From: Diplonema papillatum
Lineage: Eukaryota > Euglenozoa > Diplonemea > Diplonemida > Diplonemidae
Assembly: GCA_030068145.1 (NCBI GenBank)
Contig: JAPJBO010000772.1
Span: 44,679 to 108,678, forward strand
DNA: 64,000 nt
Direction of reading: 5' to 3'
Shown here: positions 14,381-63,476 of the stretch, in pieces
How the letters are laid out: each line of letters starts with the position of its first letter
How positions within the stretch are numbered: position 1 is the stretch's first letter
The notes under the pieces: model-generated
The model's database searches: none
What the model saw: only the letters and a program-made list of their open reading frames with translations
What the model was told of the DNA's origin: nothing
Translations under genes and position numbers: made by a program

Positions 14381-14406
14381 GAAAAAAAAATTTTTTTTTT
14401 TTTTTT

Positions 14407-34560: not shown

Positions 34561-34728
34561 GCCCCCAGAAATGCAAGAAAAATGCACAGAAACCGTAGTT
34601 TTTGCTTTTTCTTCGTTTTTTTTAGAGACCCCCCTTTCCCCAGCCGTGGCCCAGGCACGGGCTGCTGGTTGGGTGAAATACCAAAAGAGTACGGTTTCCT
34701 GACTCGGACCTGAGTTTGTGCCCAAAAC

Positions 34729-41796: not shown

Positions 41797-41839
41797 GAAT
41801 GCGGGAGTGGCACTCCCGCACTTTTTCACTCCCGCATTC
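41797..41839. repeat. Hairpin at the 5' edge of the RT-USP element copy 1
   Basis: GAATGCGGGAGTG and its perfect reverse complement CACTCCCGCATTC are 13-bp arms, with a third partial arm between them. It lies 20 bp upstream of the point where Penelope-type RT homology begins. Confidence 0.6.
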
Positions 41840-41859
41840 ACTCCCCCAAATGAATTGAA

Positions 41860-42286
41860 ATGTACACAAAGATTCCGCAGAATCAGATCGTTGACTATGT
41901 CATGTCTGCAGTTGCGGAGGCTTTCGAGTACATGACGTCCGAAAAAGGAGCGAACGTGGAAGCCCAACGAGCCAAGCACCGTTTCGAGTTTGGGAAACCA
42001 GACGAATCGAACACAACCTCCTACAGTGTCGCGGAGATTCGGGAACTGGTCGAATTCATTGTCGGTAACACCTTCGTCACGAACGGCGGAAAGTGCTACC
42101 AGCAGGTCACAGGAATCCCCATGGGCGGCAATGCAAGCCCGGACCTCGCCAACCTATACTGCTACTGGTGCGAAAAGCAGTACATCGACGGCCTGGTCGC
42201 AAACGGATTGCAAGAAGAAGCCAGGAATCACGCCGACAGCGTCAGACATTCATTGACGACTTCTTGACCTGGGGCGTTCGACCACC
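41860..42286 (+). pseudogene. Penelope-like RT-USP element copy 1, part 1 (RT core)
   Basis: Begins abruptly inside RT motif A (MYTKIP; compare DFTTMYTNLP in copy 2), so the N-terminal half of the RT is missing. It continues through LVEFIVGNTFVTNGGKCYQQ, motif B GIPMGGNASPDLANLY, and motif C FIDDFLTW. A 1-nt frameshift near 42240 separates motif B (frame of 41860) from motif C (frame of 42249). Motif spacing and the Q-x-x-G-I-P-M-G-G-x-x-S-P-x-L-A-N-L-Y string are those of Penelope-like elements. The coding region is then split at 42295 by a TIR element and resumes at 44219. Confidence 0.82.
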
Positions 42287-42295
42287 GCCGGAATC

Positions 42296-44218
42296 AGGGC
42301 TGGTTAGCCACAACTTGCCACATTGTGGCCCATTTAGCCACAACTTTAGCCACAATGTTGTGGCTAAATTGTGGCTAAATGTGCCAAAATTTTGATCGAA
42401 AAAAAGACCACCCAAAACACGCTAAACACCGTTTTTTGTGTGGATTTTCGCGTTTTTTGGATGGTTTTGGGTATTCTGGGCCTCATACCCCCCCAACAGA
42501 CCTCGAGTTCGCTTTTCGTGGATTCGAGTGGTTTTTGCCAACTTGCAGCCAAGTGCTGGGGTGACTCAGGCAGAATTCGCTATTATTTTGCGAAATCCGC
42601 GGCTTGTGGGGGTTTTCCCGGTTGGTACTGGACCTTTTCGACAATTTCAGGTGGATTCTGTGCGAATAAACGGGGGAAATCCTTGCCAGGCTCCTCGTTC
42701 CACACGTGGCCACACGTGACGAAGCTCCCCAACCGGACTTCTATGTTATTTCTAACCGGAGCCGACAACAAGGCACCCCAGAAACCGTTCCTCTCCCGAC
42801 CTAACGGAGCTAAAGGATGGCCAGGTACATTCATGTTCCCATGTTTCCCTCTCAAAAGGCTAAGGCCCAGGCTCCGTACACTTCAAAAAAAAGAAACGTG
42901 GCAACCGTGTGGCGACCAGCCCTGTCCAGACCGATTCAATGGCCGGCGATTTTGAACACTGTGGTATTTTCGACAGCAGGACTCGGCCCAAGTCCCGGGT
43001 TAGGTTGTCATCGCGGATAATGACTTCAACAGTCCACTACGAATGCGACACGATCATGTCCGCAAACCCGTTGCACAGGATTTGCACCGACCCGTGCACC
43101 AGTTTGCTGTCGGTTCCTTGCTACTGTAAAAAGTTTCCGTGTTCATCGATTACTTGTTGCAACTTGTTGCATTGCAAGCAACCTATCCTGGACTCAGGCT
43201 GGGGGCTGATTTCACCGTCAAATTTGATGCCATGATGAGAACGCGAAACCGAGAGTCTGGTAAGCACATGACTGGCGCATTGCACGGTGCAGAGTACGGA
43301 AGAGTACACTGCGCAGCGGTGCTGCCTGCCAAGCGGGTCACCTCCTCCTGAACACCGAGCCGGATGACGGTCACTGGTCTCGCCGAGCCTGGGCAGTGCT
43401 ACACCGTGCAGTGCACGGCGATGCAGAGCTGATGCGCACCGGTTGTGCTACAACCTGTTGTGCATCTCCCTCGGGTGCGGCTCCGAGCAGCACCAACCTG
43501 GTGACCAGGCTCGGTGCGATTCGCACTGAACTAAGCCGTGACGAAGAAGAACGAAAAAGCGGATGAGTGGATGAGTGAACGTCGTTGCATGCAGGTCCGC
43601 GGCTGGAACAACTTCAATTCAGAATGTCAGTGGCATGAATTGAAGGCAGTCAAGCTTTCGCAGCCTGAATCAGGACTGCTGAGAGGAAAGGCGAGTCCCA
43701 GTCGACTCTCGAGCTCTTGGGAGTGGCAGTGGCAATGAACCCGGGACCGCGGTAGCATGAACCATGTTTGGGACGTGCACGTGACACGAAGATACTCATC
43801 CCGTGTTGCGCAGCGCACGGGAACGGGGAGCCTGGCAAGCATTTCCCCCGTTTATTCGCACGTCGAAAGGGTCCAGTACAAACCGGAAAAACCCCCACAA
43901 GCCGCGGGTTTCGCAAAATAATAGCGAATTCTGGCTGAGTCACCCCAGAAATTGGCAGCACGTGGCTGCAAGTTGGCAGAAACCACTCGAACCCACGAAA
44001 AGCGAACTCGAGGTCTGTTGGGGGGGTATGAGGCCCAGAATACCCAAAACTATCCAAGAAACACGAAAATCTACCCGAAAAACGGTGTTTAGCGTGTTTT
44101 GGGTGGTCTTTTTTTCGATCAAAATTTTTGCACATTTAGCCACAATTTAGCCACAACATTGTGGCTAAAGTTGTGGCCCAATGGGCCACATTGTGGCAAG
44201 TTGTGGCTAACCAGCCCT
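42296..44218. mobile_element. MULE-like non-autonomous element (AGCCACA family), copy 2
   Basis: Ends AGGGCTGGTTAGCCACAACTT and its exact inverted complement. TIRs extend ~380 bp (42296-42690 and 43838-44218). A perfect 9-bp TSD, GCCGGAATC, is at 42287-42295 and 44219-44227. Long TIRs plus a 9-bp TSD are diagnostic of Mutator-like elements. The interior has no transposase. Removing the element and one TSD copy restores the RT frame exactly, so the RT element was there first. Confidence 0.93.
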
Positions 44219-45656
44219 GCCGGAATCTGTCTACGGCATGGAGTACGGAGAAACATCGAAAGGTGTCGACGACGTAGTCTTTTTGGGGATGCGGATCCGG
44301 ATGGAGAGGGATACCAAAACGGACTTCATTCGGATGTCCGTCCTGGACAAGGATGAGGAATTCCCCTGGTATCCGATCAAGTACACGCACGTCGAATCAA
44401 CGGTACCACGGAACACCGGAACCTCGATCTTCAAAGGCGCTCTGATTCGAGCAGCGCGCATATGTAACAATATGCCAGATCTGAAAGTCGAGATCATGAA
44501 GGTCCACTACCGACTCCGCAACCGTGGATTCTCTGGACGGGAACTCCGACACACGTTCGACGCGTTCGTTGCGCAGACGTACGGGAAGTACGAACTGGAT
44601 GCGCGAGTGCTATCACGGTTCTACCACTTCGTCGGAAAGGCCTTTGACGAAGGACGCTCGACCAACGAAGAGAAACCGTACATCAGCATCCGTTCACCGC
44701 AACCACCCGATGTTTCACCGAGACCTCCACCCGGGAGAACCTCGCCGCAGAAAACGTCGCCACACAAACCCGAACCCACCAGCACTACGCACCTTGCGAC
44801 GAAGCCAACAAACCCACCTGGACGCAACGGCATAAGGAACATCCGCAACTCATGTTTCTTTGCCGCCAGCGTTCAGTTCCTGGCGCGAAGGACCTCCTTC
44901 CGACTGCAGCTCGCAGGCCTTTCGCACCCGAACACCAACCAGTTGAAGGTGCAGCAGCTGTTCACGGATTTCGACGCAGGCCGTGACATCCACGGAACAA
45001 TGGCCACACTACGAAGCCTTGTCTTCGACACGACGACAGACGACTCCGCGCAGCGGGACGTGCACGAACTGTTGACGTGGATACGCTCTTGCGTAACGGA
45101 CGACGACGACGACCAAGCGACGGTGACATACTCCCGACTGACAACGTGTACAACATGCGAAGAGTCTTCACGAGCACTGCCGGCGTCAGAACCGTTCCTG
45201 ATGGTTGAACTCAAAAACAGGGAGAAGCCCTACACCGAGTCAGTAGAGGATCTGATAAAGAAAGTGAAAAACAAGAGAGCAACCAAAGTGGACGACTTCC
45301 CCTGTAGCACCTGCAACAAAAGGACCGTTGGACTCACGAAGGAGTATTACACATTTCCAAACCAAATGGATGTAGTACTGCAACGAGCACAGCTGTCGAA
45401 AAAAACACGCGAAGACATCAAAATACCAGCCCGCACCCCGATCCGGCCAACCATTCTGATCGGGGAAGACTCCTACACGGTAAATGGCTTCATCATCCAC
45501 ACCGGAAGAGCGACGGCGGGTCATTACTATACCGTGCTAAAGGAAAATGACGAATGGGTGTGCTTCGACGACCAGCAGGTATTCGTACTCTCATGGGAGG
45601 AATGTGCCAGAAGATTCACAACGAATGGCTACATCATCTCTCTCGAGAAAGCGTAA
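44219..45656 (+). CDS. Penelope-like RT thumb fused to ubiquitin-specific protease, copy 1 part 2
   Basis: Continuous with part 1: ESVYGMEYGETSKGVDDVVFLG, then the RT thumb (SIFKGALIRAARICNN, HYRLRNRGFSGRELRHTFDA). After a Pro-rich linker (PPPGRTSPQKTSPHKP) comes a complete USP (peptidase C19) domain: Cys box GIRNIRNSCFFAASVQFL (Cys ~206 from the ATG at 44238), QRDVHELL block, paired CTTC and CSTC zinc-ribbon cysteines, His box VNGFIIHTGRATAGHYYTVL (His ~429) and WVCFDDQQV (Asp ~444/445), ending GYIISLEKA. Catalytic Cys, His and Asp and the finger cysteines are all present. No GIY-YIG endonuclease is visible. The stop is directly after the USP. Confidence 0.85.
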
Positions 45657-46085
45657 ACACTTTCACCTGGTGGAAGTAGTGCCCCGTGGCGGTTGGTTAC
45701 GAGCCACAACACACAAGGGACGGTGCCACGGCATGATTCGGCAGCCGCTGCTAAACGAATGTGGTTCATGTACTTAAAAGAACTCAATGCTAAACGAACA
45801 TCAACGTGGGCGGCATAGAGAAAGAAGAACTTCTCTACGGCACCAGAAAGTCCAAAAAACCATGGTAAAGAAAGTAGAAGGAGAAAAAAGAAGTTGTCGA
45901 CAACGAAAGAAAGAAAAGAACAGAAAATAAGACTCTGCATTCCGCGAAGAAGACTTGATGCTAGCATCAAACACATGAGAGGCAAGTAGCGCCTGAACAC
46001 GAAACTAAGATTTTCCCCCAACCGGTGGGGGAGGCCGCCGTGTATACTGATCAAAATAAAGTACTTTATTGTTTCTGTACTTTAT
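45657..46085 (+). other. 3' flank of the RT-USP copy 1
   Basis: No ORF of note. Holds the 28-bp micro-insertion at 45760-45787 between two copies of TGCTAAACGAA (45749-45759 and 45788-45798), and a shared GTGGGCGGCA. Ends in AAAGTACTTTATTG repeats and an 18-base A-run at 46089-46106. Confidence 0.5.
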
Positions 46086-46125
46086 TGGAAAAAAAAAAAA
46101 AAAAAACTGAAGTACTTTATTGAAA

Positions 46126-47340: not shown

Positions 47341-50300
47341 CCACGGTGAACGAGTCAGTGACAAGCAACCCCAACAACTGCTTATCAGCCGCATCAGTCA
47401 ATCCCTCCCTTTCCATACCTCCCGAATCATCAGTCAGTTCCTCCCAAACACACCCGATATCAGCTTCAACCAACTCCTTCCGACCGCAAGAAGCGCACCC
47501 GCCGCTAGTCATTCCGCCCCTGAGAGCCCGCCGTTTCCTCCCTCTCGACAGGCACTTGATCCTCCTGTCGTGTAATGCCTCCTGTAAGATGTGTTTAGAG
47601 AGATTTTTCTCACGCTTGCCGGCTGCCGATGTCCTGGCGGTGAACGAGATTGGCCGCGAGCCCACGATCTTCCGCGAATACGCAACCCGTGCCGGATGGA
47701 CTGTCGTGGTGGTGGGCACTTGCCCCTACGCGGACGGGCACCCCCTGGCCCGGACGGCGATACTGATCAAGAAGCAATCCCTGATTACAGTATCTCAGTG
47801 CTACACCGGTTACGGTGCGTGCAGCGCAGACCTGCAGGTGGCGGGCGAGACACTAAGGGTAGTGAGTGTGTACGTCCCTTGCCACAAACGCGATTCCCTG
47901 ACCGACCGACTCGGAGACTGGATAGCGCAGCGGGCGCGGGACTGCATGACCGACTTCGCGGTTGTCGGCGACTTTAACCCACGAACTACGCCCCAGGTGG
48001 AGCGCCGCATGCGGAGGGAGAATCTGCAGGAATTGGTGCGGTCGCGAACAACTTTTTCGAGGTCGAACGCCACGTCGTCGCTGGACAGAGCTTTCGTGCC
48101 GAGAAGGTCTCGATGGAGCTTGAGCAGCATTCGATTCACCGGAGGAAGCGACCATGCTGTTCTGTCCCTACGCTTCGACAAGAGCCTGAAGAGGCCTCCG
48201 GCCATGGTGTACCCCACAAAGCGCCAAACCCTCGACCAAGCGACCTTTTCCCAGATGCTCGACGCCCTCGATGAAACGGGTGCTCGCCCACCCCCTCGAC
48301 CCAGAAGCACGAAGGTGGCGAGGCTGCAGGATGCCCTATATCGTCGAATTATACTCCGAAGCAGCGCCGGCGCACAACTGAAGTCGACCCTAAATGCAGA
48401 GATTCGGTCGATCCGAAAGAAATTGGACGCGGCCGGGCAACACCACAAGTCTCCAAACCTGTCATCACCTTATCAGCCACCGATGCTGGAGAATCCCGCC
48501 GTCTTTACGGCGTTCCTCCGGAACAAATACCAATCTGACGCCCTACACCCACCGATAATCCTGCCCCGCGACGCCGTACCGATTGCGTTGTCGGCCGAAG
48601 ACGTCAGCGCGGCGATAGCTGTCATCCGGTCCACTGCTCGAACAGCTGACTTCTCACCGAAGTTTTTAAAAACAATGTCAGAGAGAACTCTTGAGTCAAC
48701 GACAGCTGAGCTCAACAGATGGACTCGTGAGGGCGTACCGGCGCGACAGCGAGTGTCTTGGATTTTCTTATTCTGGAAGGGGAAGGCGATGCGAACGTCG
48801 GATCCGAGGGGGTACCGGCCAATTGCAATAATGCCTCTCTTTGCAAAGCTGCAGCACTCGGCATTGTATCTGAAAATGAAACCGTTGGTACAGTCATTGG
48901 TCCAGATGCACGAGTTCCAGTTCGGATGCGGTAGGCAAAGCGGGGCGGCGCAGGTGGTCCTCCATGCACGGGAGTGGCTGGAATCAGAGATGGGTTCTGA
49001 GGAAGACGACGAGCGCTTGCTGCTCCTGGTAGACGTCCGGGCCGCCTTCGACTCGATTCCGCACGGAAGGCTGATACAGACGGTAGAGAGGCTGCTTGGC
49101 CCCGAATGGGCGAAGACAGTAGCAAGGGTAATCGAGGGCCAGGAGGTGACGATTGTTCACTACGACGGGTTTACCCCGCCGGTCGGCTTGGGGCGAGGCG
49201 TACTCCAAGGCTCACCCCTCAGCGTACTCCTCTTCGTACTGTACACCTGCGAGCCCCCCCCGAGGGAAGAGACCCGGGCGTACGTCGATGATCTGGTGGC
49301 CCGAACAACAAGGTCACGCCTCCCAGCTACTTTTGGGGCGCTCCAATCGTGGTCGGCGTCGAAAGGGTTGGAGCTGGCTGAAGACAAGATCCTTGTATTG
49401 GCGAAGACTCCCTTCGTGTGGAGCACTGAACCTCACCGCGAGACCGTGAACCGCGCAAAACTGCTGGGTGCCTGCCTGCACGCGGACAGACGAACGAGAG
49501 GGTGCGAGAATGACGCGAAGAACTTGGAAAGGCTGGCACGCCTGGTAGACTTCACCAACTCCCACGTCTACCGCTCGACAAGACGTAAGTGTGCCTTCTT
49601 CCGCAGCCACGTACTGCCCACCCTGTCCATGCACTGCCTATCCTCCTGCTTCGACCCAAGAGCACCCAAGCTGGTAGCTTCTCACGCAAGTCTCTTCCCG
49701 AAGCATCGCCACAGTAGAGGGATTAAGGAATTTGCATGGTGCAAGGACGGCTTCGCGTGCCCGAACGTGGAACATTACGCGGCACTTCAACGAACGCGGG
49801 CGTACCTGGCTCACCGACCCAACGAAGAAAGGGACGCCCTCCCTGTAGCAGGCTTCCGTCGAAGGCCCCCCCGACAAACAGCCGTGGGAGAGGACATACT
49901 CTCGCAGATCGACGTGATGCTGGGCCGGGAATTCTTGTTGACGCATGATGTTGTGGTGGCGAGCGATGGGGGTTTTCTCGAGGACGAATCGCGCGGGTCC
50001 GCCGGAGTCAATTTCGGAACGATGTCCTTCGGCTGCCTGCTAAGCGGAACCGTGACCTCGAGCACAGAGACCGAACTGGCGGCAATGATGCTGTTGGCAA
50101 CCGTGCTGAGACGGTGGGATGTCGCCCCCGAGAGGGTTTCGTGGTACAGCGACAGCGAAGCGGCCATCCTGCGAATCCGCCGAAAGGAGCCCGGTGACCC
50201 CGTGGCAGGCGTGGTCGGCGAGTATGAGCAGTGCCTCCGATGGGGTAAGGGACACGCCGACAACACCGACATCAACGGCGCAGATGAGGCGGCGACGCGG

Positions 50301-50846
50301 GCCCTCCAGGAGAGACTTCCGGTTCTGGACGTTGAGCTCCTGTATCGGAAGAACGGGGTAAGAGCTGTTTGCTGTTACGCCGCAGAGGACTTCCCGCAGC
50401 TGGAGAGCCCCATTCGGTACGTGAAGCGCGTGTGGCAGTACAGCCGGACAAAGACGGCGACGAGGAGCATACGGGAACTTGCGTCGGCGGAGACAACGAA
50501 GGGGAGTACGCTCCGCTCCCTCGAAGCACTGCCCGGCGCCGTGGACCTCTTGCAAGCGATTATCCGGCGAGCGGTGATGCCGCGAGCCACCCGGATCGCC
50601 TGCAAGCGGTGCGCGGCGCTGGCCAACGCGCAACACGTCCTGCTCGCAGATGATGCGACGCACAACGAAGTGTCCGACATCCGTCACGCATACCCCACCG
50701 ACCCGCCACAACTGAAGGGACTGCTCGCGGACTTTGCAAAGAAACGAAGAGACACGATCCGGCACGTGGCGAAACGCGTGAAGGTCCTGTGCGACGACCC
50801 GTTAGCGGCACGGTGGTCCTCGCTAGTTTTGAGATATCTCGAGTAA
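47313..50846 (+). CDS. Family C LINE ORF2: APE, RT, RNase H
   Basis: Open from 47313 to TAA 50844, ~1177 codons; no ATG before the endonuclease, so translation probably depends on ORF1 (overlap, -1 frame) or on a non-ATG start (GTG 47346). APE: LLSCNASCKMCL, LAVNEIG, AVVGDFNPRT, GGSDHAVL. RT: SDPRGYRPIAIMPLF, motif A LLLVDVRAAFDSIP (49.02 kb), motif B VLQGSPLSVLLF (49.20 kb), motif C YVDDLV (49.28 kb). RNase H: VVASDGGF, TETELAAMM, YSDSEAAIL, GHADNTDINGADEAA (49.95-50.29 kb). A Cys/His cluster ACKRCAALANAQH lies near the end. The RT is compact between motifs B and C. The catalytic set is intact, so it may be the youngest autonomous LINE in the window. Confidence 0.85.
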   Translation, partial: GRPRGRLILATVNESVTSNPNNCLSAASVNPSLSIPPESSVSSSQTHPISASTNSFRPQEAHPPLVIPPLRARRFLPLDRHLILLSCNASCKMCLERFFSRLPAADVLAVNEIGREPTIFREYATRAGWTVVVVGTCPYADGHPLARTAILIKKQSLITVSQCYTGYGACSADLQVAGETLRVVSVYVPCHKRDSLTDRLGDWIAQRARDCMTDFAVVGDFNPRTTPQVERRMRRENLQELVRSRTTFSRSNATSSLDRAFVPRRSRWSLSSIRFTGGSDHAVLSLRFDKSLKRPPAMVYPTKRQTLDQATFSQMLDALDETGARPPPRPRSTKVARLQDALYRRIILRSSAGAQLKSTLNAEIRSIRKKLDAAGQHHKSPNLSSPYQPPMLENPAVFTAFLRNKYQSDALHPPIILPRDAVPIALSAEDVSAAIAVIRSTARTADFSPKFLKTMSERTLESTTAELNRWTREGVPARQRVSWIFLFWKGKAMRTSDPRGYRPIAIMPLFAKLQHSALYLKMKPLVQSLVQMHEFQFGCGRQSGAAQVVLHAREWLESEMGSEEDDERLLLLVDVRAAFDSIPHGRLIQTVERLLGPEWAKTVARVIEGQEVTIVHYDGFTPPVGLGRGVLQGSPLSVLLFVLYTCEPPPREETRAYVDDLVARTTRSRLPATFGALQSWSASKGLELAEDKILVLAKTPFVWSTEPHRETVNRAKLLGACLHADRRTRGCENDAKNLERLARLVDFTNSHVYRSTRRKCAFFRSHVLPTLSMHCLSSCFDPRAPKLVASHASLFPKHRHSRGIKEFAWCKDGFACPNVEHYAALQRTRAYLAHRPNEERDALPVAGFRRRPPRQTAVGEDILSQIDVMLGREFLLTHDVVVASDGGFLEDESRGSAGVNFGTMSFGCLLSGTVTSSTETELAAMMLLATVLRRWDVAPERVSWYSDSEAAILRIRRKEPGDPVAGVVGEYEQCLRWGKGHADNTDINGADEAATRALQERLPVLDVELLYRKNGVRAVCCYAAEDFPQLESPIRYVKRVWQYSRTKTATRSIRELASAETTKGSTLRSLEALPGAVDLLQAIIRRAVMPRATRIACKRCAALANAQHVLLADDATHNEVSDIRHAYPTDPPQLKGLLADFAKKRRDTIRHVAKRVKVLCDDPLAARWSSLVLRYLE

Positions 50847-52260
50847 ATCAGCACTGCGTCTTGTGTGGGGGGCAACGGAAGAGGAAGAAGTGGAAAGAGA
50901 AGGGATCGGAGCGGTAGGGAAAAGGGAGAGTGAATGACTAACAATATCAACGGAAGGAGAAAAAAAGAAAAGAAAAAAAAAACGCTAACCCAAACAACTT
51001 CCGCCGGTAGAGAAACCTCGCCTAAAGAAATCAACTGCCTTCGGGTAGGCTAGTCTGACACTAGTTGTCGCAGGGTTTAAGTTAGGGCCGGTTTTCCGGT
51101 TTCCAAAACCGGCTTTCGGCTAAACCCGGTTTTGGAAAAAAAAAAAAAGTGGAATTCGCCCCAGCCCGGAACCGGCTTGTTCACTACTACACTGCACTGC
51201 TGCAGTGCACTACTATTCTGCACCGCGGATGGCATTCCAAATGACGTTCTTTCCTCGTACGTAGAGACCTTTACTTCTGGGGAAAGAAAGCTTGCATATA
51301 CGTCTCTCGAAGACCTCAAAGCTGCCCAAGAACACGCCATGACCCTGAGAAAGAGTTGTGAAAAGAGCTGGTGGATCTGATGACCAGCGGTATTGCTACA
51401 CGTAAACAAAGATTCCGAAGCCATCGTCTACCTCCCTGTTTGGGTCTCTGCTGTTTCCTCCCCTGACTTGCAGTTTACTTGTTGCACCTGTAGGCTTCTC
51501 CCGTTCTCTGTTTTGCAACTGAGCGGGCACGCTTGGGCGCAGCGGCATGGTGTTACCACGTTGCAGCATCGCTGGTGAAATGGCGGGTACATGTGTAGGG
51601 CAAGGAGGCGCGGCCGAAGGCCGATGCCGCCGCAGGCCGGAAACGTGGCCCCGGGGATGCGAATGAGGGCCGGGAACGCGTCCGAACCGCAGTGCAGCGC
51701 TGACAGGCAAAAACCGGGAAAACCGGGAATAGAGCTAAAAAGAAAATCCTAACTTAACCCCTGGTTGTCGTCGGGAAAAAAAAAAAAAAGTGACGCACCC
51801 CCCCTGAATATAGAAGTTTGATAGAAGTTATGTAGTGGGTAACACCAGCAGAGATTGCAGTCGTAGCCAGTCTGCTCAAATTTTGTGCAAGGTGCCGCGA
51901 TCCAAGTAGAGATATCCGCCGAGCTCCGATGCCGCCCAGCGTCTTCACAAACGCGCGAGCTAAAGGGCCGGGTCGAATAATAACACCTGAGTTATAATCC
52001 AATCTGTCGAATACCGAAGAATATTCCGGGGGGCACGATGGGTCGAACAATAGCAGGGATCAAATAATGATACTCTTTTTTGAGAGGATGGCTTAGGGAA
52101 CTCGCGCGTTTCCAGGGAGGTTCTGGGTGAAGTTGACACGTTGAGGCTGGAAGTGCCTTCTCATCCCCCAAGTTCATGGCCACCTGTAGAGACATTCATA
52201 GCCAGAAGAAATACTCTGACACAGACTAAGCGAAACACAAAAAAGGGGAACTGGGGAAGG
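50847..52260. other. 3' UTR of family C and unassigned repeat-like DNA
   Basis: Purine-rich 3' UTR to ~51000 (AAAAAAAGAAAAGAAAAAAAAAA). Two further A-runs (51135-51148, 51777-51791) look like old poly(A) tails. The plus-strand frame at 51132-51380 reads SSYVETFTSGERKLAYTSLE, an unrecognised, possibly captured fragment. 51805-51830 shares GAATATAGAAGTTTGATAGA with 39.88 kb. Confidence 0.45.
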
Positions 52261-52833
52261 ATGCGGTTTTACCCGGAGTTAAACGGCTACGTGTCGGCTC
52301 CGGTGCTGTGTGCGGTGCCGCTCGCGTACATCAGCGTGCTCTACATGCTCCGCTTCTATATGGAGGATAAGAAGGCTATGCAGCTCAGCGTACTGATACG
52401 GCTGTTCAATGCCTGTCAAGTGGGCCTAGCAGTGCTCATGACGTACAAACTCGCAGCGAACTTCATCGTGTGGAATCCGTTCATGTCAAACACTGAATTC
52501 ACTGCCTACACTGAGTATTGGCTGTTTGTTCACTACCTCGGCAAGTACCTCGACCTCTTCGAATCCGTCATCATCGTGCTCCGAAAGCGCACATCTCAGC
52601 TAACAACACTGCACCTCGTGCACCATTCATCTATCCTCGTCATCTGGGGCTGGCTCCTGAACGTGGGCCTCGCAAACGGTACTGCTTCATACGGAGCCTT
52701 GGTCAATTCGTTTGTGCACGCAGTTATGTACGGTATGCTTTTGCGATTGAATGTGTTGAAATTTTGCGTCCGAGAAACTGCCGAATCCAGCCTGCCAACA
52801 TCCCCAGATTGCGGCATCATCGGTAACGTGTAG
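52261..52833 (+). pseudogene. Fatty-acid elongase (ELO family), C-terminally truncated
   Basis: ATG at 52261; MRFYPELNGYVSAPVLCAV begins a multi-pass membrane protein. ELO signatures: KYLDLFESVIIVLRKR (the KxxE/DxxD region), LHLVHHSSI (the HxxHH box, di-iron site) and NSFVHAVMYG (the NxxVHxxMY block). ELO enzymes condense malonyl-CoA with acyl-CoA in the ER. Normal proteins run ~270-300 residues and continue after MY with Tyr-rich membrane helices and a Q-x-x-Q motif. Here the sequence diverges after MYG and stops at 190 residues. A GTATGC directly after ATGTACG could be a donor site of an intron, but I found no downstream exon before the RT-USP element begins. Confidence 0.75.
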
Positions 52834-53281
52834 ACCAAGACACCGGCTTCACCGGGCACTTCAGCGAGCTTCGTTACTTCACCGAGTGGTCCTGACAGAT
52901 TCCCTGATTGCCCGTCTGCCATACCAAGCGGCCATTGCAACCGCAAAAGCAAGTACAGTGTCCAGCGCAGTGATTTTTAAGGGTCCCCACTTGTGTTTTT
53001 GCCTTCATTAACGATACTTGATGCTAGAGTTCTGCTCAGCTCTGACCAATGAAATTGCGACAAGTCCAGTACTTCTGCTCTGAGGGGAAGGCCGCCCGGG
53101 TCCGTGCAGCTCCCTGGTAAAATCCGACACTACCGTGGCTACAAGAACATTCAAGGACACGCGATCGGACACCTTTTCGATATAACACAAGACAAAGGCC
53201 TCACTGAGTGTATCAAGCGCGAACGAAAATACCGCTGCTACCAGGACCATCACGCACTCGAAGAGGGACTACACTTCCATA

Positions 53282-56200
53282 GATGAATACGTAGAAAAAT
53301 ACTACCCGTCGGAACCAAACGCTTCCGCTTTTGGAACAGCGTTGAAGGACGAACTTTCGGGACGCCTCGCCACCTTACCACCATCTGACGAAGAACGTTG
53401 AGCCGTATCGCATCGCAAGAACTCAAGAGACTCAAACAAGACCTGGTGATACTGCCCGTAGACAAAACCACACACGACTTCGGTTTTTGTTGCAAGGCGT
53501 ACTACACAAACACACTACGGGAGCAAATACAAACCAGTGCCACATACAAGAAGCAAAATATTACGAAGACCCAGCTACAACAACAGCACAAGCAGCAACT
53601 CGAGCCTTTCAAACTACAAGCACAAGGCGGACTACCTTACCTCTACGGCAGTCTTAAATTACATAAAGCCGAACCGAGTTTCCGGTGGATTGCGGGCGTA
53701 GCAACAGACATTGTAAGGAAAGACAACAAGACAACCGCGCGCAAGCAGAAACCGAAAGCAACTACTACGAACGCCCACCTAGAGCTGTCCGGACTGCTGA
53801 AGGCTATAATGCGGACGATAAAGGAAAAGGACCGACGGAACCAACGACAGACGGGAATAAAGAAGGTCTTCTTCACCGAGAGCCCCGACGACATAGCCCT
53901 CAACGTCAAACAGCGTCAAACCCATCTGAGATACAAAACACCCACCGACCACGACTTCACGACAATGTACACCAACCTACCGCACGCGGATCTCAAGCGC
54001 AGGGTTGGTTCAGCTGTCGACGAAGCTTATGAATACGAGGAGAAACACGGCCACAACCACCTCACCCGAGGAGCTAAGCAACAGGGCAAAAAGACTTTTA
54101 GTTTCGGCAAAGGGGCGAACAAGGCGCCCTACTCAACTTTGTCATCGACAATGCCTACATCGAGCAGGACGAAACCATACTACGCCAGACGGAAGGCATA
54201 CGGAGGCAATGCAAGTTCGGACCTGGCGAACTTGTACTGCTACAGTGTGGAGTCCGAGTACATAGACGGACTGCTAGCAGATGGCAAAGTCGACGAAGCC
54301 AAAGCCCACGTCGACACATGGCGATTCATAGATGACTTCCTCCAATGGGACTGCAAACCACCACCTCAATCACTCTATCGTATGGAGTACAAAGAGACGA
54401 CAGCTGCACGCGACGACATCGTCTTCCTTGGAATACGTATACGCATTGAACGACCCGCAACACCACACCCACCACACATAAGACTAAGCGTGCACCCCAA
54501 AACCTTCGGCACCCGGTTCACACACTACCAGACCACCGCCCCCAAATCACAGGCCAGCGGCATATTCAAAGGCTCACTGATAAGGGCAATCCGACAAACC
54601 AACCACTGGCAGGACCTTCGCGTCGAGATCCAGCGCAACGTATACGCGATGCTCGAACGGGGGCACCACCCCAGAGTCCTCTACCCCCCGTGGCAAGCTT
54701 GGCTGACGGAGGAGTTCCGAACCCTACCACGACTACACAGCCAGTTAAAACCGTTCTTAGGGTACAGCATTGCGCGTTTCAAGAACGGCAAACCGCGCAT
54801 GGAAGAGCCAGAATACGCCGGAAGACACCAACCCCTTAACTTCAAACCAGCCGAACTGCCTGTAACACCGGACGATCGCGACTCAATGACAGACAGCCAC
54901 TCCTCAACTACCCACGAACACGAGGAAAGACCAACAACCCTCCTTTCACAACCACAACCACAGTTCACCTTGAAACACCGAGTAGCCAACCTAGCAGCAA
55001 CCATCACTTTAGCGGCAGCAATCGCAGCCGCCGGAGCGAGGACCATGTCGAAACTCACGAGATACACCACCACAAACTCCTGTTTTCTGCAAGCGGCCCT
55101 CAACTTGATCGCCGCCACAGACATGGCACAACAAGTAGTCACATACCACGACTGCCCAACACACACGAAAGGCGAATGCACGGCAGCTGTCCACGCTTGG
55201 GTGACAGGAAAACGGACGCAAGCAACACTGCTGCACGTTTTCGCCAACATCGACGGACCGTTCGGCAACGGGCAGCAATGCGACCTCGGGGAAGTGCTAA
55301 GGGCCATCACCACAGCACTTCTTGACGAAAACCTCGCACACCAAGCTTGCCAGCAACATCGCCCTGACGCTTTCAACGGTCTACGACATACAACGACGAC
55401 GACAACTACTTGTAAAAACTGCAACCACAACAAAACCAACCCCCCCGAAGACCACGACATAACCTTTCTACCTCCAATCGACAACTCGATCCAACGGTGC
55501 TTGAACAACCTCAAACCTGGCCCCGCCGCCGACTACAGATGCGAAGTCTGCAAAATCACCGATACCACCCTCACAACAACAACATTTCACCGCATTAATT
55601 CAATGCTGTTGATTCAGCTTCAAAGAGCCCGTAGACACGAAGCGACGAACCGTACCGCTATACGCGCCGACCACTCTATCACGCTGCCAGGACAAAACAC
55701 ACCACTCGTTCTCAAAGCCATAGCAGTACACTCCGGCCACAACAACGCAGGGCACTACGTCATCCACGCCCTCAACGATATCGACGCTAACCAACGATGG
55801 ACGCGCTTCGACGGACTACAGACGCACTCCACTTCGACACAAAACTACGCCGACAACGAAGTTTACCTCTGCGTCTACCAGCTCAAAGACTACCCACAGA
55901 CGGATGTCCCGCCACCCATAGACCACAACCACTATGAACCCCCAAAGCCTGCCACGTCCAGAACCACAACACAAGAGCCGGACTCGACGCAAAGTATACT
56001 TAGAGCCATGCGCGGAGACGAGACATCTACCGACACACCCACACAACGACACGACAGCACACAAACACCCACAACACCAGGCACGTCACAGACCTCCAGT
56101 ACCACCGCGGAAACAGAGACCAGCAGTGAAGACGACTTACGATGTCCCCACTGCCACACACGCACAACAACAACCGGCCTCAAACTGAAGGGAAAACAAG

Positions 56201-56430
56201 GATTACGGACGCACCTACGTTACTGCAAGAAGAAACCAACCAGAACTAAGTCACAAGCAGAAACAACGCTGCGAAGCACCACCCAGAAACGAGAGAGATG
56301 TCCCTACTGCCACAGCGACGGACGAACCGTGGGGAAACCACTCTTCAAAAGTCTACGACACCATAAGCCCTGGTGCAAAAAGAAGCACTGTAAACAACGC
56401 ACAGCAACGACGACTCCATCAGACGAATAA
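53282..56430 (+). CDS. Penelope-like RT fused to USP deubiquitinase and zinc fingers, copy 2
   Basis: Main frame 53398-56430, ~1010 codons. An upstream frame (IDEYVEKYYPSEPNASAFG, PPSDEER) joins by a frameshift at ~53398. RT: LKQDLVILPVDKTTHDF, YLYGSLKLHKAEPSFRWIAG, motif A HDFTTMYTNLP (~186), GGNASSDLANLYCY (B), RFIDDFLQW (C, ~310), thumb GIFKGSLIRAIRQTN. Paired frameshifts between ~54115 and 54200 hide FVIDNAYIEQDE and damage the IPMG part of motif B. USP: Cys box TTNSCFLQAALNLIA (Cys562), GQQCDLGEVLRAI, CKNC and CEVC, His box AVHSGHNNAGHYVIHAL (His786), RWTRFDG (Asp805). Then a Thr/Ser-rich linker and two fingers, CPHC...H...C (~916) and CPYC...H...C (~968). No GIY-YIG nuclease. Function inferred: retroelement protein able to remove ubiquitin. 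Confidence 0.82.
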
Positions 56431-57409
56431 CCTCACTAACCACGGGTACCCAGTGTGCCCAGAGTGCCTTAACTGTGGCGAGCAACGAACAGTTTTACCC
56501 TGCAAATCTACCCAAAAAAAACCTTATTTTAGGACGGAAACAACCCGCACCACGTGAAGCACCGCAAGTGCCGCGAAATCCAAGCACCACACTGCGAGAA
56601 AATACATATAAACGCGGACAACAGACCGGTACGGGCTACAAGGCAACCCCTGCTCAACTTGTAGAACGTGGGGGGCCCAAGACTACACTCCACGAAGGAA
56701 TGTACTTGGTGTCGGTCACAAACAGTCCCGGACATGGCTAGCCATAACCCATAACGAAAGCGTGCACGCAATATACAACCCGTAACCACATAGCCCTTTC
56801 TTGCTCTAAGAGAACCCATTCATGAACGGTCACACGGAGACCCTAAAACCCCGGAATTTTAAGCGAACTTTAACTCTAAAATATACCCCCCCAGCCAGTA
56901 CTAATGAACAACGATCTCAGCCGTCCCCGGCAAAAGCAGGCATGACACCCGTTGTCGAAAGGTGATAGATACACACTGGATCACCGCACTGACGTTTGTC
57001 CCTACCCTTAACCAGAACCGCAGCCGAAAGCGAGACAGACTGTTACCCGAACTCAGAACAACAAAAACAACACATACAAGATGCCTTACCTTTCTCGGCA
57101 TCTCCATCATTTCACACCGAATGGCGCACGTTCCTGCTATTCGCACATAGCTTTCCATAGTACCCCGCAACCGGGGTAAGGGCTGAAAGTGGCACATAGT
57201 GCGTGCCTGGTGGGAAATGGCGGTTTTGCCGATAGCTCTATCTTCCGCCCCGCATGGCCTGCACATCTCCGAACTTCCCGTTCTGACGTTGTCATCGCCA
57301 TTCCTATCCAATCGAGTCGAAGTATTTCCAGTACAGTGGCAAGAACAATTTGGACGCTTTTCATGCTCTCTCACGGTAGGAGGTCCTCGCCGGAGAGTGG
57401 CAGCCCGAG
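56431..57409. other. 3' flank of RT-USP copy 2, no gene recognised
   Basis: Short ORFs only. 56475-56741 reads NEQFYPANLPKKNLILGRKQ, unrecognised. Could include the 3' UTR of the RT-USP element; no poly(A) or terminal repeat is visible to define its end. Confidence 0.4.
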
Positions 57410-57832
57410 GTGTGGCCCGCCCGGCAGGCGCGGCCGCAGCCCTTCCACCAGGAGGCGCCGCAGCCCCTCCAACAGGCGGGACCGCAACCCGTCCAGCAGG
57501 CGGGGCCGCAACCCGTCCAGCAGGCAGGGCCGCAGCCCTGCCAACGGGGGGGGCCGATGCCCTTCCACCAGGAGAGGCCGCAGCCCCTCCAGCAGGCGGG
57601 GCCGCAGCCCTTCCAACAGGCAGGGCCGCAGCCCTTCCTACTGGCGGGGCTGCAGCCCTTCCTGCAAGGGGGACCGCAACCCTTCCAGCAGGCAGGGCCG
57701 CAGCCCTACCAGCAGGCAGGGCCGCAGCCCTTCCAGCGGGCGGGGTCGCAGCTCTTCCAGCAGGCGGGGCCGCAGCCCTTCCAGCAGGCGGGGCCGCAGC
57801 CCTTCCAGCAGGCGGGGCCACGAGCCCTTCAG
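57410..57832 (+). repeat. 24-bp minisatellite encoding PQPFQQAG repeats (left half)
   Basis: About 17 units of CAGCCCTTCCAGCAGGCGGGGCCG. As 24 is a multiple of three, one frame gives an octapeptide repeat (PQPFQQAG) and the others Ala/Pro- or Arg/Ser-rich repeats. It continues at 60875 beyond a 3.0 kb insertion and there runs in frame into a family A N-terminal domain, so it is an expanded coding repeat of a family A copy. Confidence 0.75.
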
Positions 57833-60800
57833 CAGTGTGGCTTTTGTGTACACAAAATTACACATTGTGTACACAAAATTACACAAAGCATTACACAAAA
57901 TTACACAAAAAATTACACAAAATTACACAAAGCATTACACAAAATTACACAAGAATTACACAAAGGATTTCACAGTGTATTTGGGCTCGAAATCGCTTTC
58001 GGAACCTTTTTCGCGACATTCCCGTCACATTTTGGCCTCAGCTTTGCCCCGTGAGTGAATTTGGATGTCTTTCGAGAAATTCACAGCTGGCAGACGAGTC
58101 TTCCCCACCACCACCACCACCACATCAGACTTTAGCCACCTCCTTGTCACGAACTTTCCTGCACGGCCAACCTTAATAAGGTCCTTATCGAGGCATCGTT
58201 TCAAGGAGAATGGCTTGCACTGAATTTGCCTCACTGGCCGCGGTAGCCTATGTGCGTACTGAGTAGGTTCGGGTGTCAAGAAGAGTGAGAGTGTGAATCG
58301 ACATCAATGATGGACGACTCCAGCCTCAGGACCCAGGCCGCAGGCGAGACCCAACGTGACTTCGTTGTTATCTACAAGAACGAACACTTCCGTGTGACTC
58401 TGAGTCAGAAAGGGGCGCTGGAAAGATCTTGCGCAGAATTCTTCTACCCGGAACTTCTCTTTCCGGATGTGCCGAAGCCTGTGACGAAGGTCCTGCCACT
58501 ACTGTAGTTACTGGAGAGGCGGGATCACGGCCGCTGAACACAAGGCCCCACGCACGAGAGCAGACAGCGAGGAAGGCCGGTGAAAAGGTGCGCGCCGTGC
58601 CGCAGGCGACTCCGCAAAGCTGCCACCTCGTACGGCAGGTTCCGCCCACAGGAACTACTCATCGGAATGGCAACGCAAGCAGGCCCGATGGAAACACGAA
58701 GTGAAGCGCGAGAGACGGACTACAGAGACGGGACGCGAGCCGTGCCAAGGGAAGACCGGGCGTTGGGAATCGTCAATGATCGTGCGAAACCGGAAGAAGT
58801 CCAAAAACGAAGCAGCATCGACATGGAAGCACAATCCAAGGACAGCCAAGCAGGCCTCCCAGGGCAGGGGAACCTACGGCGGTGAAGTAGCGAAGCTCAC
58901 TCGAGCGACCGATGAAGTCCCTTGTCAATACCAACGACGGTAACACGCATGCACAATGCCGGATGCTAGCTTCTGTCAAGAGCATGCGTGGCACAGCCGT
59001 GAGAGGCATTGGCTCACTCTGTCCATACCACTACTGTAGTTACTGGCTCACATGGTTGAAGGGAAACTCTTTTTGGTTCGACTCACGGTTCTGGGACCGT
59101 TGTCGCTTCATTGCGAAGGAATCCTGGGGGGACGTGGGCCCGGTCCGGGAGGGCAAGTTCTCAAGATCAGTCGCTGTTGTTGAAGATCCATTGATCGGGA
59201 AATCCTTCTTCAGAACCATGCGATTCAACTCGCGATACGTGATGCTCGTTCTCGGACCCGAGAACGAGCATCACGTATCCAACACCCAGTTATGCTGAGA
59301 CAGTGCGTGATGATCACTCGACCGATTCGGACACTTCAGTGTGAACACACAGCACGTCACTGCAAAAAGTTCGCTGCGTATACCAACCTACTCGGCTCTG
59401 CGCAGAGCACGAACATGAAGCCGCAGTGCCGCACGGAAACTGAGCACTGCCCCCCTTCGCCTTTTCGGATAGCGTGGCGAAAGCCGCAGTGCCACTCGAA
59501 GCTCGCAAGCAGCCGCCAGAACCTGAGCCCCGGCTGAAGGACACAGGCGAGCAACGAGTGCGTGTAAGTTACGTTAGTAATGTGTAGTAGGCACCGTTCG
59601 GAACAGCTGAAGGCCTAAACGGGAAAAGTCAGTGCCTGCATACGGACAAGCCAAGCAACCAACCTATCTTTCCCCCCAGGGCCCATACTACTTATGTAGT
59701 ATCCGGAACAGCTCAGTGTGTACCCCGCATAGCCGCTGTGCCACAACTCCCAGTGGCATGAACAGTCGCCGCGAACGACTACGTCGGGATCTATAGATTG
59801 TCGGATCGAGACGGGCCGCCGTCGTTGCTCGAGCAAACACTGCCACTACTCGGAGACCTGGCGCTCCGCTCGGGCTGAGCGGGCTCCCGAGCGGCGTGCC
59901 TCGATCCTCCCGACATCTGCGGCGATAGTCTATCGCCGGCTTCGCAGTCACCTCTTTGCACGTGAAGTGTTGTGCTCATCTCGTCATGATCAACTTCGTT
60001 GTCGTCGCTTCATTGCTCGCGCAGGTGCCGTTATTCCAACCTTCGCTCTCAATTCTGGTTCCCGCGCTTTTCTGCACCTTCTGGTCTTTCCGGTAGCCAG
60101 CACCACGTTCTCGCGCTTCACTCGATTCGGAGGTAATGCCGCCGGCGAGGCTCTTCGGTGCCACTTTCTCAGCGTTTATTTGCCTTTAGGTAAACCCCGT
60201 TTTCTTCTTCGTTGAATGATAGCACGCCCCCACCGCGCACGATGATGCACCTTCCTGTCCAGGTCAACGGCTCCTCCGGATTTCGCCTGCAACTGCGATG
60301 CTCACTCGGTGCAGCACCGGAACGTGGCGCCGACTCCGTCCCACCTGGCACGGGCGACCTCGAAGGCTGAGTAGCTTCGCAATGAAGCGACAACCTCAAC
60401 GGCCCCGGAACCATGAGTCGAACCAAAAAGAGTTTCTTCGCCACTGTGAGCCAGTAACTACAGTAGTAATGATGTCGATTCACAATCTTCTTGACACCCA
60501 AGCCTACTTAGTATGCACGTCGGCCCAGTGGGGCAAAATCAGTGCAAGCCGTTCTCTTTGAAACGGTGCAGACCTACAATACACTGTAAGGGCCTTACTA
60601 AGGTTGGCCGCGCACAAAGGTTCGCGACAAGGATGGTGGCTAACGCCTGGTGTGGTGGAAGACTCGTCTGCCAGCTGTCAAATTTCTCGAAAGACTTTCA
60701 AATTCACTCACGGGGCAAAGCTGATGCCAAAATGTGACGGGAAAGTCTCGAAAAAGGTTCCGAAAGCGATTTCGAGTCCCAATACACTGTGAAATCCTTT

Positions 60801-60874
60801 GTGTAATTTTTGTGTAATGCTTTGTGTAATTTTGTGTAATTTTGTGTAATTTTGTGTGGACAAAAGCCACACTG
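57833..60874. mobile_element. 3.0 kb palindromic TIR element inserted in the minisatellite
   Basis: Ends CAGTGTGGCTTTTGT and CAAAAGCCACACTG are inverted. TIRs of ~250 bp carry tandem AAATTACACAAAGCATTACAC subterminal repeats. Internal arms also mirror each other (59026-59115 and 60380-60470, ACTACTGTAGTTACTGG and GGTTCGACTCA motifs). The flank CTTC(C)AG on both sides gives an imperfect ~7-bp TSD in the 24-bp repeat. No transposase. A hAT-like or MULE-like origin is plausible. Confidence 0.75.
59235..59278. repeat. Perfect 21-bp hairpin in the centre of the TIR element
   Basis: Left arm ATACGTGATGCTCGTTCTCGG (59235-59255) and its exact complement to 59278 are separated by 2 nt. The surrounding sequence is ordinary. 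A stem this long and perfect implies recent formation or selection. Confidence 0.8.
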
Positions 60875-62184
60875 CTTCCAGCAGGCGGGGCCACAGCCCT
60901 TCCAGCAGGCGGGGCCGCAGCTCTTCCAGCAGGCGGGGCCGCAGCTCTTCCAGCAGGCAGGGCCGCAGCCCTTCCAGCAGGCAGGGCCGCTGCCCTACCA
61001 GCAGATGGAGCCGCTCCCCTTCCCGCAAGAGGGGCCGCGGTCGGCACAGGAGCAGGAGGAAGGTGACGCCGGGATGCGAGAGGCGGCCGAGCGCGCCACC
61101 CCCGCACCCCGTGACCCGGTGGGGCGCCGCCTCTTCGGAGAGGACGGGGTGTTCTCGGGCTCCACGCCTTCGTCACCCCGAGGGGAGGAGCTGGCCCCAG
61201 CGCGACGCCACAGGGCGCAGTCGGTGGGCGGGGAGATCTTCGCCACCCCAAGCGACGAGGGCGACCAGGCTGGCCCAGAGGCAGCCGCCCAGGCGGACCC
61301 TAACCCCGCCGCCGTAGGGGGAGAGGACGACCAGGCCAGGCCCCCAGGCGCCGCACCGGCCGGCCCCGCAGGAGTCGTTCAGGCCGACCCCGCGGCAGTC
61401 GTCCAGGCCGACCCCGCAGCCGCCGCCCAAGATGACCTCGTCGCCGAGGGCGTCGTTGGAGACCCGGGCGCGCCCCCAGCCGCCGTACAGGACGGGGTCG
61501 CGGCCGTCGATCAAGGTCTGGTGGCCGAACGCGCGGGGGACGACCAGGCCGGCCCCGGCGCCGCGAGGGGCGAGGTCGAACTCGCAGCCGCCGGCCAGGC
61601 GGACCTCCCCTCCGCGAGCGGCACGGCCGGGCAGGCCGTCACGGACTGGCTCCGGGGGCAGCGGGTCGCGCTCGGCATGGTCTCGAGCGACCTGGAGCCC
61701 TTCCCGGACTCAGAGTCCGACTCTAGCTCGGAGTCGGACTCGTCGGGACCCCCCCCCACGGAGTCCGATGACGAGCCGGGGCAAGGGGGCGGAGGACCGG
61801 GCGGACCGCGATCCGACCGGGGAGGCAGTGGGGGGCCCGACCCCGGGACGGGAGGAACGGGAGCGAGCGGTGCGCTAGCGGGCCAGCCGGCCGGAGCGCC
61901 GGCAGGGACTGGAACCGACCAGCCGGACGCCCGGGATGGAAGCTCGGGGGAAGGGGCCCCACGACCCGAGCAGCCGGGGGCGAGCGCGCCGCAAGCGGGC
62001 CAACCGGCCGAGGTGCCGGCGGCGGGGGCAGGAACCGACCGGCCGGACCCCCGGGAGGGCGACTCAGGAGAGGGCGCTCCACAACCTGAACAGCCGGCGG
62101 TCGGGGCGCCGGCCGTGGAGCCGGAGGTAGCGCAGGGGCCGAGTGCCAAGCGGCCGGCATCGCGCTCACGCCGGCCGCCGTACG
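60875..62184 (+). pseudogene. Family A N-terminal region, diverged copy
   Basis: After the last PQPFQQAG units the frame reads DAGMREAAERATPAPRDPVG and RRLF, matching DAGMREASEAPQAG...PVGRRLF of copy 1; then the 24-residue-type Ala/Asp repeats (VQADPAAVVQADPAAAAQDD), LEPFPDSESDSSSESDS (copy 1: ANPFPDSESGTGSG) and AKRPASRS. A small deletion before TPAAVRR shifts frame. It is interrupted at 62185 by the VIPER-like element and resumes at 63966 (AGACAACCGGGCGCC, equivalent to VRRRRPGG). A third family A subtype, opposite in orientation to copy 1. Confidence 0.8.
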
Positions 62185-62288: not shown

Positions 62289-63476
62289 GAGGAGTGCGGT
62301 TCGACCCGGGATTTCAAGACCGGGTTTTACGCGATCGAGATTCCACCGGAGTCGCGTCACCTCTTCCGCTTCGCTGATTCCGATGGCGGTTGGTGGGAAC
62401 TGCTGCGGCTTCCCATGGGACATTCGTGTGCACCTGAGATAATGCACACACTGGCAGCGGTGGCCGGCGGACACGAGGACTTCGTGCGTCCGGAGTTTGC
62501 GGAACGGGATGTCATCGTCGACATCTGGATCGACAACATCCGGTATGCGGGCAAGAAGCCGGCTGTGCGGCTCGCGACTCGGAGGCTGGACCAGACCGCG
62601 GAGGAGTGCGGCCTGACGTGGAAGCCGTCCGATTCGCAGACTGCCGCCACACGGTATGAGTTCATCGGGGTCGATTGGGACCACGTTGCTCATCGTGTGG
62701 CTGTCTCACGGAAGTTGCGAAGAAAGCTGATGGAGGCGCGCTACACGCTGAAGTCGTCGCCCACCGTGCTGGCGTGCGAGCTCGAGACTCTCGGCGGCCG
62801 TTTATTGCATGCCTCTGCGGTCGCCGGCATTTTTCCGGGCTCGTTTTGGTTTGCGTTGAAGTTCTTTCGACGCATAACCAACTCGTTGAACCGAGGGGCT
62901 CGGCTGCCCTCTGATAGAGTTGAAGTTTCTCCGTGTGTTCGTTTGTCGCTCCAAGAGTGGATTGACTCGGTGCTGAAGCCGAGGGCCGTTCCCACTCTCG
63001 AACAGTCCCCACGTATCACGGCCTTCGTGGACGCGAGTAAGAAAGGCTGGGGGGGTGTCCTTGTTGACTCGCGCACAATGGAAGTGACCGTGTTGGGTGG
63101 GTCTTGGAACTCTGCGGAGAGCTCGTTGCACATAAACGAGTTAGAGGCTATTGCCTTCAAGTTAGTTGTCTTGGCTCTGCCGCCCTCGATTAGAGGTGGG
63201 AGAGTGGACATTGTGGTTGATAATACCACTGTGAAAGGAGTGGCCCGTAAGGGGTCCTGTTTGAAAAGTGCCGTCTTGAACGAGGCGGTAGTTAAAGGAC
63301 TGGAACGCGTGCGTTCCTTGAATTGCGCTGTTTCTGTACGATGGGTCAGGAGTGAGGGCAACCCTGCGGACTTGCCGTCACGCGTACCGCTGACCATGAT
63401 TGGCGCTGATGCGCTCGATTCAATTGTACTTGCGGTGAGGCAGTTTCTCACTGGCGTTGTGGTGGATGGAAGGTGA
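62289..63476 (+). CDS. RT-RNase H of VIPER/Ngaro-like element, N-terminally deleted
   Basis: Open from 62289 (first ATG 62415) to TGA 63474, ~395 codons. RT motif A region RDFKTGFYAIEIPPESRHLF, motif B LLRLPMGHSCAPEIMH, motif C IWIDNIRYAG, where the usual second Asp is Asn, as remembered for VIPER/TATE-type RTs. RNase H: ITAFVDASKKGWGGVL (Asp), SLHINELEAIAF (Glu), DIVVDNTTVKGVA (Asp), VRWVRSEGNPADLPSR (final Asp). The stop overlaps the start of B1, the place expected for the last ORF in the VIPER order. RT fingers are missing. Confidence 0.82.
   Translation, partial: EECGSTRDFKTGFYAIEIPPESRHLFRFADSDGGWWELLRLPMGHSCAPEIMHTLAAVAGGHEDFVRPEFAERDVIVDIWIDNIRYAGKKPAVRLATRRLDQTAEECGLTWKPSDSQTAATRYEFIGVDWDHVAHRVAVSRKLRRKLMEARYTLKSSPTVLACELETLGGRLLHASAVAGIFPGSFWFALKFFRRITNSLNRGARLPSDRVEVSPCVRLSLQEWIDSVLKPRAVPTLEQSPRITAFVDASKKGWGGVLVDSRTMEVTVLGGSWNSAESSLHINELEAIAFKLVVLALPPSIRGGRVDIVVDNTTVKGVARKGSCLKSAVLNEAVVKGLERVRSLNCAVSVRWVRSEGNPADLPSRVPLTMIGADALDSIVLAVRQFLTGVVVDGR

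Follow-up and report, generated by a model that had tools for sequence, protein, structure and literature searches.

Can the reverse transcriptase (RT) of a mobile element carry a deubiquitinase of its own, and what would such a fusion do? The initial annotation of the window (the whole stretch of 64,000 nucleotides of Diplonema papillatum DNA analyzed here) raised this question by reading positions 53282 to 56430 as a single frame in which a Penelope-type RT runs into a ubiquitin-specific protease (USP; peptidase family C19). The RT-USP fusion is strongly supported by our analysis: the USP family PF00443 is matched at full length twice, the catalytic and zinc residues are kept, and the same order of parts recurs in a second, diverged copy of the element, which had been overlooked and is the strongest evidence for the fusion. 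At the level of the sequence, the fusion, its two diverged copies (termed copy 1 and copy 2 herein), and the retention of the catalytic and zinc residues can be regarded as established. The predicted proteins point to a retroelement lineage, probably a Penelope-like element (PLE) that encodes no endonuclease; its RT and thumb are followed by a Ser/Thr/Pro-rich linker and then by the USP domain (Table 1).

Table 1. Features of the two RT-USP copies (positions are those of the window; a dot marks a feature given no strand)
Feature	Position	Strand	Details
Copy 1	53389..56430	+	Order RT, thumb, linker, USP, two Cys/His stretches; single open frame
Copy 1 RT core	53443..54441	+	LVILPVDKTT 53443, GSLKLHK 53647, DFTTMYTNLP 53953, GGNASSDLANLY 54202, RFIDDF 54322, VFLGIRI 54421
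Copy 1 RT stretch, apparently out of frame	54120..54203	+	Other frame resembles copy 2; directly 5' of motif B
Copy 1 USP (peptidase C19)	55069..55878	+	PF00443, residues 561-830
Copy 1 USP residues	Cys565 (codon 55081), Cys675/678/718/721, His789 (55753), Asp808 (55810)	+	
Copy 1 USP motifs	NSCFLQA 55075, CxxC 55411 and 55540, GHY 55750	+	Cys box to His box 55075-55758
Copy 1 C-terminal CxxC...HxxxC pair, finger-like	56143..56376	+	From sequence; 3' of USP
Copy 2 RT core piece	41860..42295	+	MYTKIP, GIPMGGNASPDLANLY, FIDDFL; upstream part missing
DNA transposon in copy 2	42296..44218	.	1,923 bp; inverted-repeat arms of 264, 102, and 42 nt (95, 91, and 95% complementary)
Copy 2 thumb, linker, and USP	44219..45653	+	USP 44829-45635; thumb 37% identical to copy 1
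Copy 2 USP motifs	Cys box 44847, QRDVHEL 45051, CxxC 45147 and 45303, GHY 45519, FDD 45564	+	

The copy 1 open reading frame (ORF) runs from stop to stop over 1,013 codons and ends with a stop codon, against a maximum of 329 and a median of 161 codons in 500 first-order Markov shuffles of positions 53000 to 56700. The single frame first described thus holds from position 53389 on, but not for positions 53282 to 53388, which contain in-frame stops; coding bias there gives no support to the frame originally proposed, the ORF frame scoring slightly better despite its stops. In frame, no ATG occurs before codon 141 (position 53809), which lies 3' of the first RT motifs, suggesting that the 5' end has been damaged, contains sequencing errors, or is read in another way. 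Codon bias trained on positions 54322 to 56427 ranked the ORF frame top, by small margins, in the untrained windows centered on 53460 to 54270, except at 54180. At about 54120 to 54203, translation in phase 2 resembles copy 2 with a score of 36, reached by 2 of 2,000 shuffles, versus a score of 12 for the ORF frame, reached by 979 of 2,000; coding bias is nearly equal in the two frames here (0.02 versus 0.00). This likeness suggests that copy 1 was altered just 5' of RT motif B while its ORF stayed open, and copy 1 appears either to be slightly decayed or to bear sequencing errors. The sense strand of positions 53389 to 56427 is A/C rich (32.7% A, 32.4% C, and 14.3% T), and copy 2 has a similar but weaker bias.

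The USP domain proposed initially was confirmed by a search against PF00443 (cutoff, 23.9 bits), which copy 1 matched with an E value of 3.1e-11 (43.8 bits; profile positions 6 to 254 of 254) and copy 2 with an E value of 7.3e-17 (62.2 bits; profile positions 2 to 251 of 254). The Cys box, zinc cysteine pairs, and His box described for copy 1 were likewise recovered. N563, C565, C675, C678, C718, C721, H789, and D808 are identical in the two copies; these eight positions were selected for the roles that we assume from other USPs (N563, C565, H789, and D808 as catalytic residues and Cys-box Asn, and the four CxxC cysteines as zinc ligands), and their identity counts as support rather than as a probability, because the alignment depends in part on positions of this kind. 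Against the Protein Data Bank (PDB), a joint profile of both USP domains matched 90 distinct sequences at an E value of ≤0.1, the best being USP36 (2.6e-08), and the best 60 of these 90 were all ubiquitin or ubiquitin-like C-terminal hydrolases. Searched alone, the copy 1 domain had 45 matches at an E value of ≤1, all of them USPs (best E value, 0.0021), and the copy 2 domain had 84, the best 60 of which were all USPs (best E value, 4.5e-07). An AlphaFold2 model of the USP domain, built from 2 sequences, reached a mean pLDDT of 35.1, a score too low for the model to be usable, which we attribute to too few relatives. The element shares with the C19 USPs (USP36, USP4, USP28, USP5, USP15, and Ubp8) the Cys box, the QQ.D/QRD box, the CxxC-CxxC site, the GHY His box, and the FD motif; it differs from them in that the domain is fused to an RT, and both copies have LQRA where USP8/Ubp8, USP15, and USP36, the three PDB proteins whose printed alignments cover the site, have LKRF. 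Copy 1 continues beyond the USP domain with two Cys-Cys-His-Cys stretches missing from the initial annotation, which match no Pfam family above the cutoff, and copy 2 ends directly after the USP domain without them.

Copy 2 was found by a tblastn search of the copy 1 ORF against the window. It lies at positions 41860 to 45653 on the same strand, 7.7 kb (about 8 kb) upstream of copy 1, and repeats the RT-USP order. Its RT core is 38% identical to that of copy 1 (tblastn E value of 1e-18 at positions 41860 to 42246 and of 8e-19 over 135 columns; 42% identity in a MAFFT alignment), and its thumb and USP domains were matched at positions 44211 to 45653 with an E value of 2e-26. The copy starts abruptly at a middle RT motif, and the upstream part of its RT was not found in the window at an E value of 5; near position 42246, the RT changes frame, so that FIDDFL lies in another frame just 3'. 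Its longest frame has 481 codons, versus a maximum of 328 in 500 shuffles of that region. The RT and thumb-USP parts are separated by a DNA transposon flanked by a 9-bp target duplication, GCCGGAATC (positions 42287 to 42295 and 44219 to 44227). When the flanks are joined at this duplication, the sequence reads continuously as FIDDFLTWGVRPPPESVYGMEYGE, from RT to thumb-USP in frame, indicating that both parts formed one ORF before the insertion. The longest open frame of the insert has 195 codons, which suggests that it is non-autonomous, and the length of the duplication suggests that it is probably of the Mutator type. A Mutator/MULE transposase ORF of a kind able to drive such an insert is located at positions 31129 to 32457 (minus strand; PF00872, E value of 5.5e-10; PF10551, E value of 2.4e-08).

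How the two copies are related was asked of the USP domains directly. They are identical at 60 of 265 aligned residues (22.6%), and their kinship is real by a global alignment score (z = 8.3; 300 shuffles), by phmmer (E value of 2.7e-05 when the domain was searched together with 1,000 shuffles; 19.4 bits), and by BLASTP (E value of 5e-07; 35.8 bits). Their common LQRA and their same place behind the thumb favor one old capture of the USP. In phmmer comparisons, USP5 is a better match to copy 2 (32.6 bits) than copy 1 is, so that a single old capture is favored by the sequences but not proved, and a later USP replacement or a second capture is possible. Since a diverged second copy has a like arrangement, the RT-USP pairing looks lasting rather than accidental, and in these sequences it looks like an architecture kept over a long divergence.

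Of the two halves of the fusion, the RT is the less well supported, with weak profile matches. All RT motifs named in the initial annotation are present and in the order described, but the RT of copy 1 alone had no Pfam match at an E value of 10, its whole ORF had no RT match in NCBIfam, and neither PHROGs (searched with the RT, the USP, and copy 2) nor PADLOC (searched with the RT) gave a match. The RT piece of copy 2 matched the group II intron RT model TIGR04416 (E value of 0.0049) and RVT_1 (E value of 0.21), both far below the cutoff and over the motif B region. A comparison of the RT profile with that of two non-LTR RTs of the window, each built from just two sequences, gave a probability of 0.6% and no support; searches of the PDB with the RT part included no RT among their matches, and its AlphaFold2 model, with a mean pLDDT of 38.2, was too poor to be usable. 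The RT motifs of PLEs follow the order DK(G), K.HK, YT.(I/L)P, GG..S...AN, F(I)DD, and a motif of the FLG/FLD type. The motifs of the element resemble this order, which is that of Penelope/Poseidon, Neptune, and Athena/Terminons (Naiad/Chlamys also being counted among the PLEs), and by the order and wording of its motifs, we consider the element to be probably of the Penelope type.

Three further marks of many PLEs, a GIY-YIG endonuclease, a hammerhead ribozyme, and pseudo-LTRs, were not found where they were sought. No GIY-YIG-like pattern was present in the six frames of positions 51000 to 58500 and 39000 to 47000, which is compatible with a divergent or lost domain, and neither ORF had a GIY-YIG Pfam match. 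Within positions 51700 to 58300, copy 1, the copy searched for pseudo-LTRs, is not bordered by long direct repeats. Rfam found no hammerhead in positions 52800 to 57300 at an E value of 5, where sR55 was the sole match (E value of 4.2, below the cutoff), and none across the window at gathering scores; a loose pattern of the hammerhead core had two minus-strand matches, at 47433 and 18543, which lack Rfam support. Adjacent pairs of telomere-type units (TTAGGG, TTTAGGG, and similar) were absent from the window. According to the available text of two papers, endonuclease-deficient PLEs exist, and Terminons have been reported with extra enzymatic ORFs, e.g., for a GDSL esterase and a DEDDy exonuclease (PMC6431247; PMC5408684), so that a missing GIY-YIG domain is compatible with the PLE class. 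What sets the element apart from these PLEs is the USP fused in frame 3' of the thumb.

The make-up of the window marks it as eukaryotic, and it contains many other mobile sequences. A non-LTR retrotransposon ORF of 1,519 codons (positions 19505 to 24061, plus strand) encodes an AP endonuclease and an RT, with an RNase H match below the cutoff. Further RT-bearing ORFs are located at positions 47313 to 50843 (plus strand; RVT_1, E value of 1.3e-13), 15174 to 17462 (minus strand; E value of 1.7e-06, just below the cutoff), and 6399 to 13265 (minus strand; E value of 1.8e-08; 2,289 codons open). An RNase H ORF lies at positions 13474 to 14451 (minus strand), and the ORF at 62289 to 63473 (plus strand) weakly matches a retrotransposon RNase H family (PF17917; E value of 8.4e-05, below the cutoff). 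Just upstream of copy 1, positions 52084 to 52830 (plus strand) encode a segment of an ELO fatty-acid elongase (profile positions 9 to 157 of 242); the remaining C-terminal exon was sought by motif and not found, and an intron may divide the gene, or the element may have disrupted it. Two kinds of tandem arrays were also observed. A 24-bp GC-rich unit and a 10-mer of the TACACAAAAT type form adjoining arrays at both 57424 to 57964 and 60798 to 61038, with the 10-mer in opposite orientations, and the 13-bp arrays AAACTTGGGTCCC (34725 to 34967) and ACCCAAGTTTGGG (35465 to 35801) consist of one unit in opposite orientations (98 and 97% matches).

What might the USP do for the element? The explanation that we put first, tentatively and at somewhat less than an even chance, is that it acts in cis as a deubiquitinase that spares the RT, or the ribonucleoprotein (RNP), from ubiquitin-dependent loss. 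The USP would be active and would strip host-placed ubiquitin from the element's own RT or RNP, this would give the polymerase time to arrive at chromatin and reverse transcribe its RNA, and the finger-like C-terminal stretches of copy 1 would aid nucleic acid binding. The covalent fusion of the USP to the polymerase favors a substrate in cis, for which the protease/deubiquitinase of tymoviruses, which stabilizes its own polymerase, is a precedent. Damage in both copies counts against this explanation, namely, that of the motif B region and 5' end in copy 1 and the missing part, frame change, and insert in copy 2. Moreover, the same traces in the sequence would be expected if the USP acted on chromatin or interfered with host defense.

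In the first of these two alternatives, the USP, tethered by the RT and the finger-like stretches, would remove ubiquitin from H2A/H2B and so open or mark the site of integration, possibly standing in for an encoded endonuclease. We consider this an unlikely explanation, but one with several points in its favor: Cys/His stretches do stand behind the copy 1 USP, no GIY-YIG-like pattern was seen near either copy, and the best PDB match of the copy 1 domain is "Ubiquitin carboxyl-terminal hydrolase 8" of 3m99 (E value of 0.0021), which we take to be yeast Ubp8, the SAGA histone deubiquitinase. That match is weak, however, with no single stretch passing alone and USP7 following at an E value of 0.0032; the better matches of copy 2 and of the joint profile are to other USPs (USP5, USP15, and USP36), and copy 2 has no finger-like stretches after its USP. 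We find it similarly improbable that the USP acts in trans on ubiquitin-dependent silencing or restriction by the host. The kept active-site residues suit such a role, and the available text of one paper discusses the domains related to apoptosis and ubiquitination in Burro elements as possibly meddling in host systems (PMC6431247), but a role in trans needs no covalent fusion to an RT and lacks a known target.

Rather than a mobile element, the locus might represent a domesticated RT-USP family of host genes derived from a retroelement; the kept catalytic residues would fit this view, as would copy 1, for which no element ends, terminal repeats, or target duplications were found. We consider this rather doubtful, as copy 2 is disrupted and lacks its upstream RT part, the 5' end of copy 1 is damaged, and transposable elements crowd the neighborhood. 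Still less probable is a USP that processes the polyprotein of the element itself: although it sits between the RT and the finger-like stretches in one ORF, USPs cut after the C termini of ubiquitin or ubiquitin-like proteins, and Pfam finds no ubiquitin-like module in the copy 1 ORF. Finally, an RT relic lying beside, or assembled with, a host USP gene by chance, for which the local frame damage in copy 1 and the crowding of the region with mobile elements might speak, is rejected, because copy 2 (23 to 38% identity) keeps the order with a frame continuous across the empty site, and the 1,013 stop-free codons of copy 1 far exceed the shuffled maximum.

A broader proposal joins the preferred cis explanation to its chromatin alternative: the two copies may belong to a clade of their own among telomerase-related retroelements that encode no endonuclease, with the USP as a standing core domain of the polymerase protein, selected for deubiquitination of the RT/RNP or of target chromatin. 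We judge the chances of this proposal to be evenly balanced.

Searches for further relatives covered viral, prokaryotic, plasmid, and phage collections. Five protein scans of viral contigs yielded 1, 65, 80, 14, and 86 pattern stretches and a scan of prokaryotic genome contigs yielded 61, none of which was confirmed, and tblastn of plasmids and phages gave no match; these results say little, since none of the collections was eukaryotic by design. The PLE motifs, run as DNA patterns on viral contigs, picked out two contigs whose ORFs did not look RT-like by eye, and then none. In the literature, searched by titles and the starts of abstracts and with Repbase outside the search, no report of a USP in a PLE was found, so the RT-USP fusion appears, provisionally, not to have been described previously in this class. 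The nearest parallels lie in other kinds of elements. Helentron/Helitron2 elements, according to the available text of PMC6431247, carry an OTU-like cysteine protease (Helinoto is named in a title in the reference list of PMC7599744) and are likewise mobile elements bearing a deubiquitinase-like domain; they are rolling-circle DNA transposons with an OTU-like protease, whereas an RT element with a USP is found here. Burro elements are giant Gypsy-like LTR retrotransposons with AIR1/RING, MATH/TRAF-C, and BIR motifs and are thus, as far as that text goes, retroelements with extra domains linked to ubiquitination, as here; unlike the present element, they are LTR elements, and the available text names no USP in them (PMC6431247).

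The RTs of mobile elements must outlast ubiquitin-dependent turnover by the host, and a deubiquitinase built into an RT would open this question to a direct test by one active-site mutation. The USP would also join the deubiquitinase-type domains of transposons, such as the OTU-like domain of Helentrons, and would extend the known domain plan in the Penelope/telomerase part of the RT tree.
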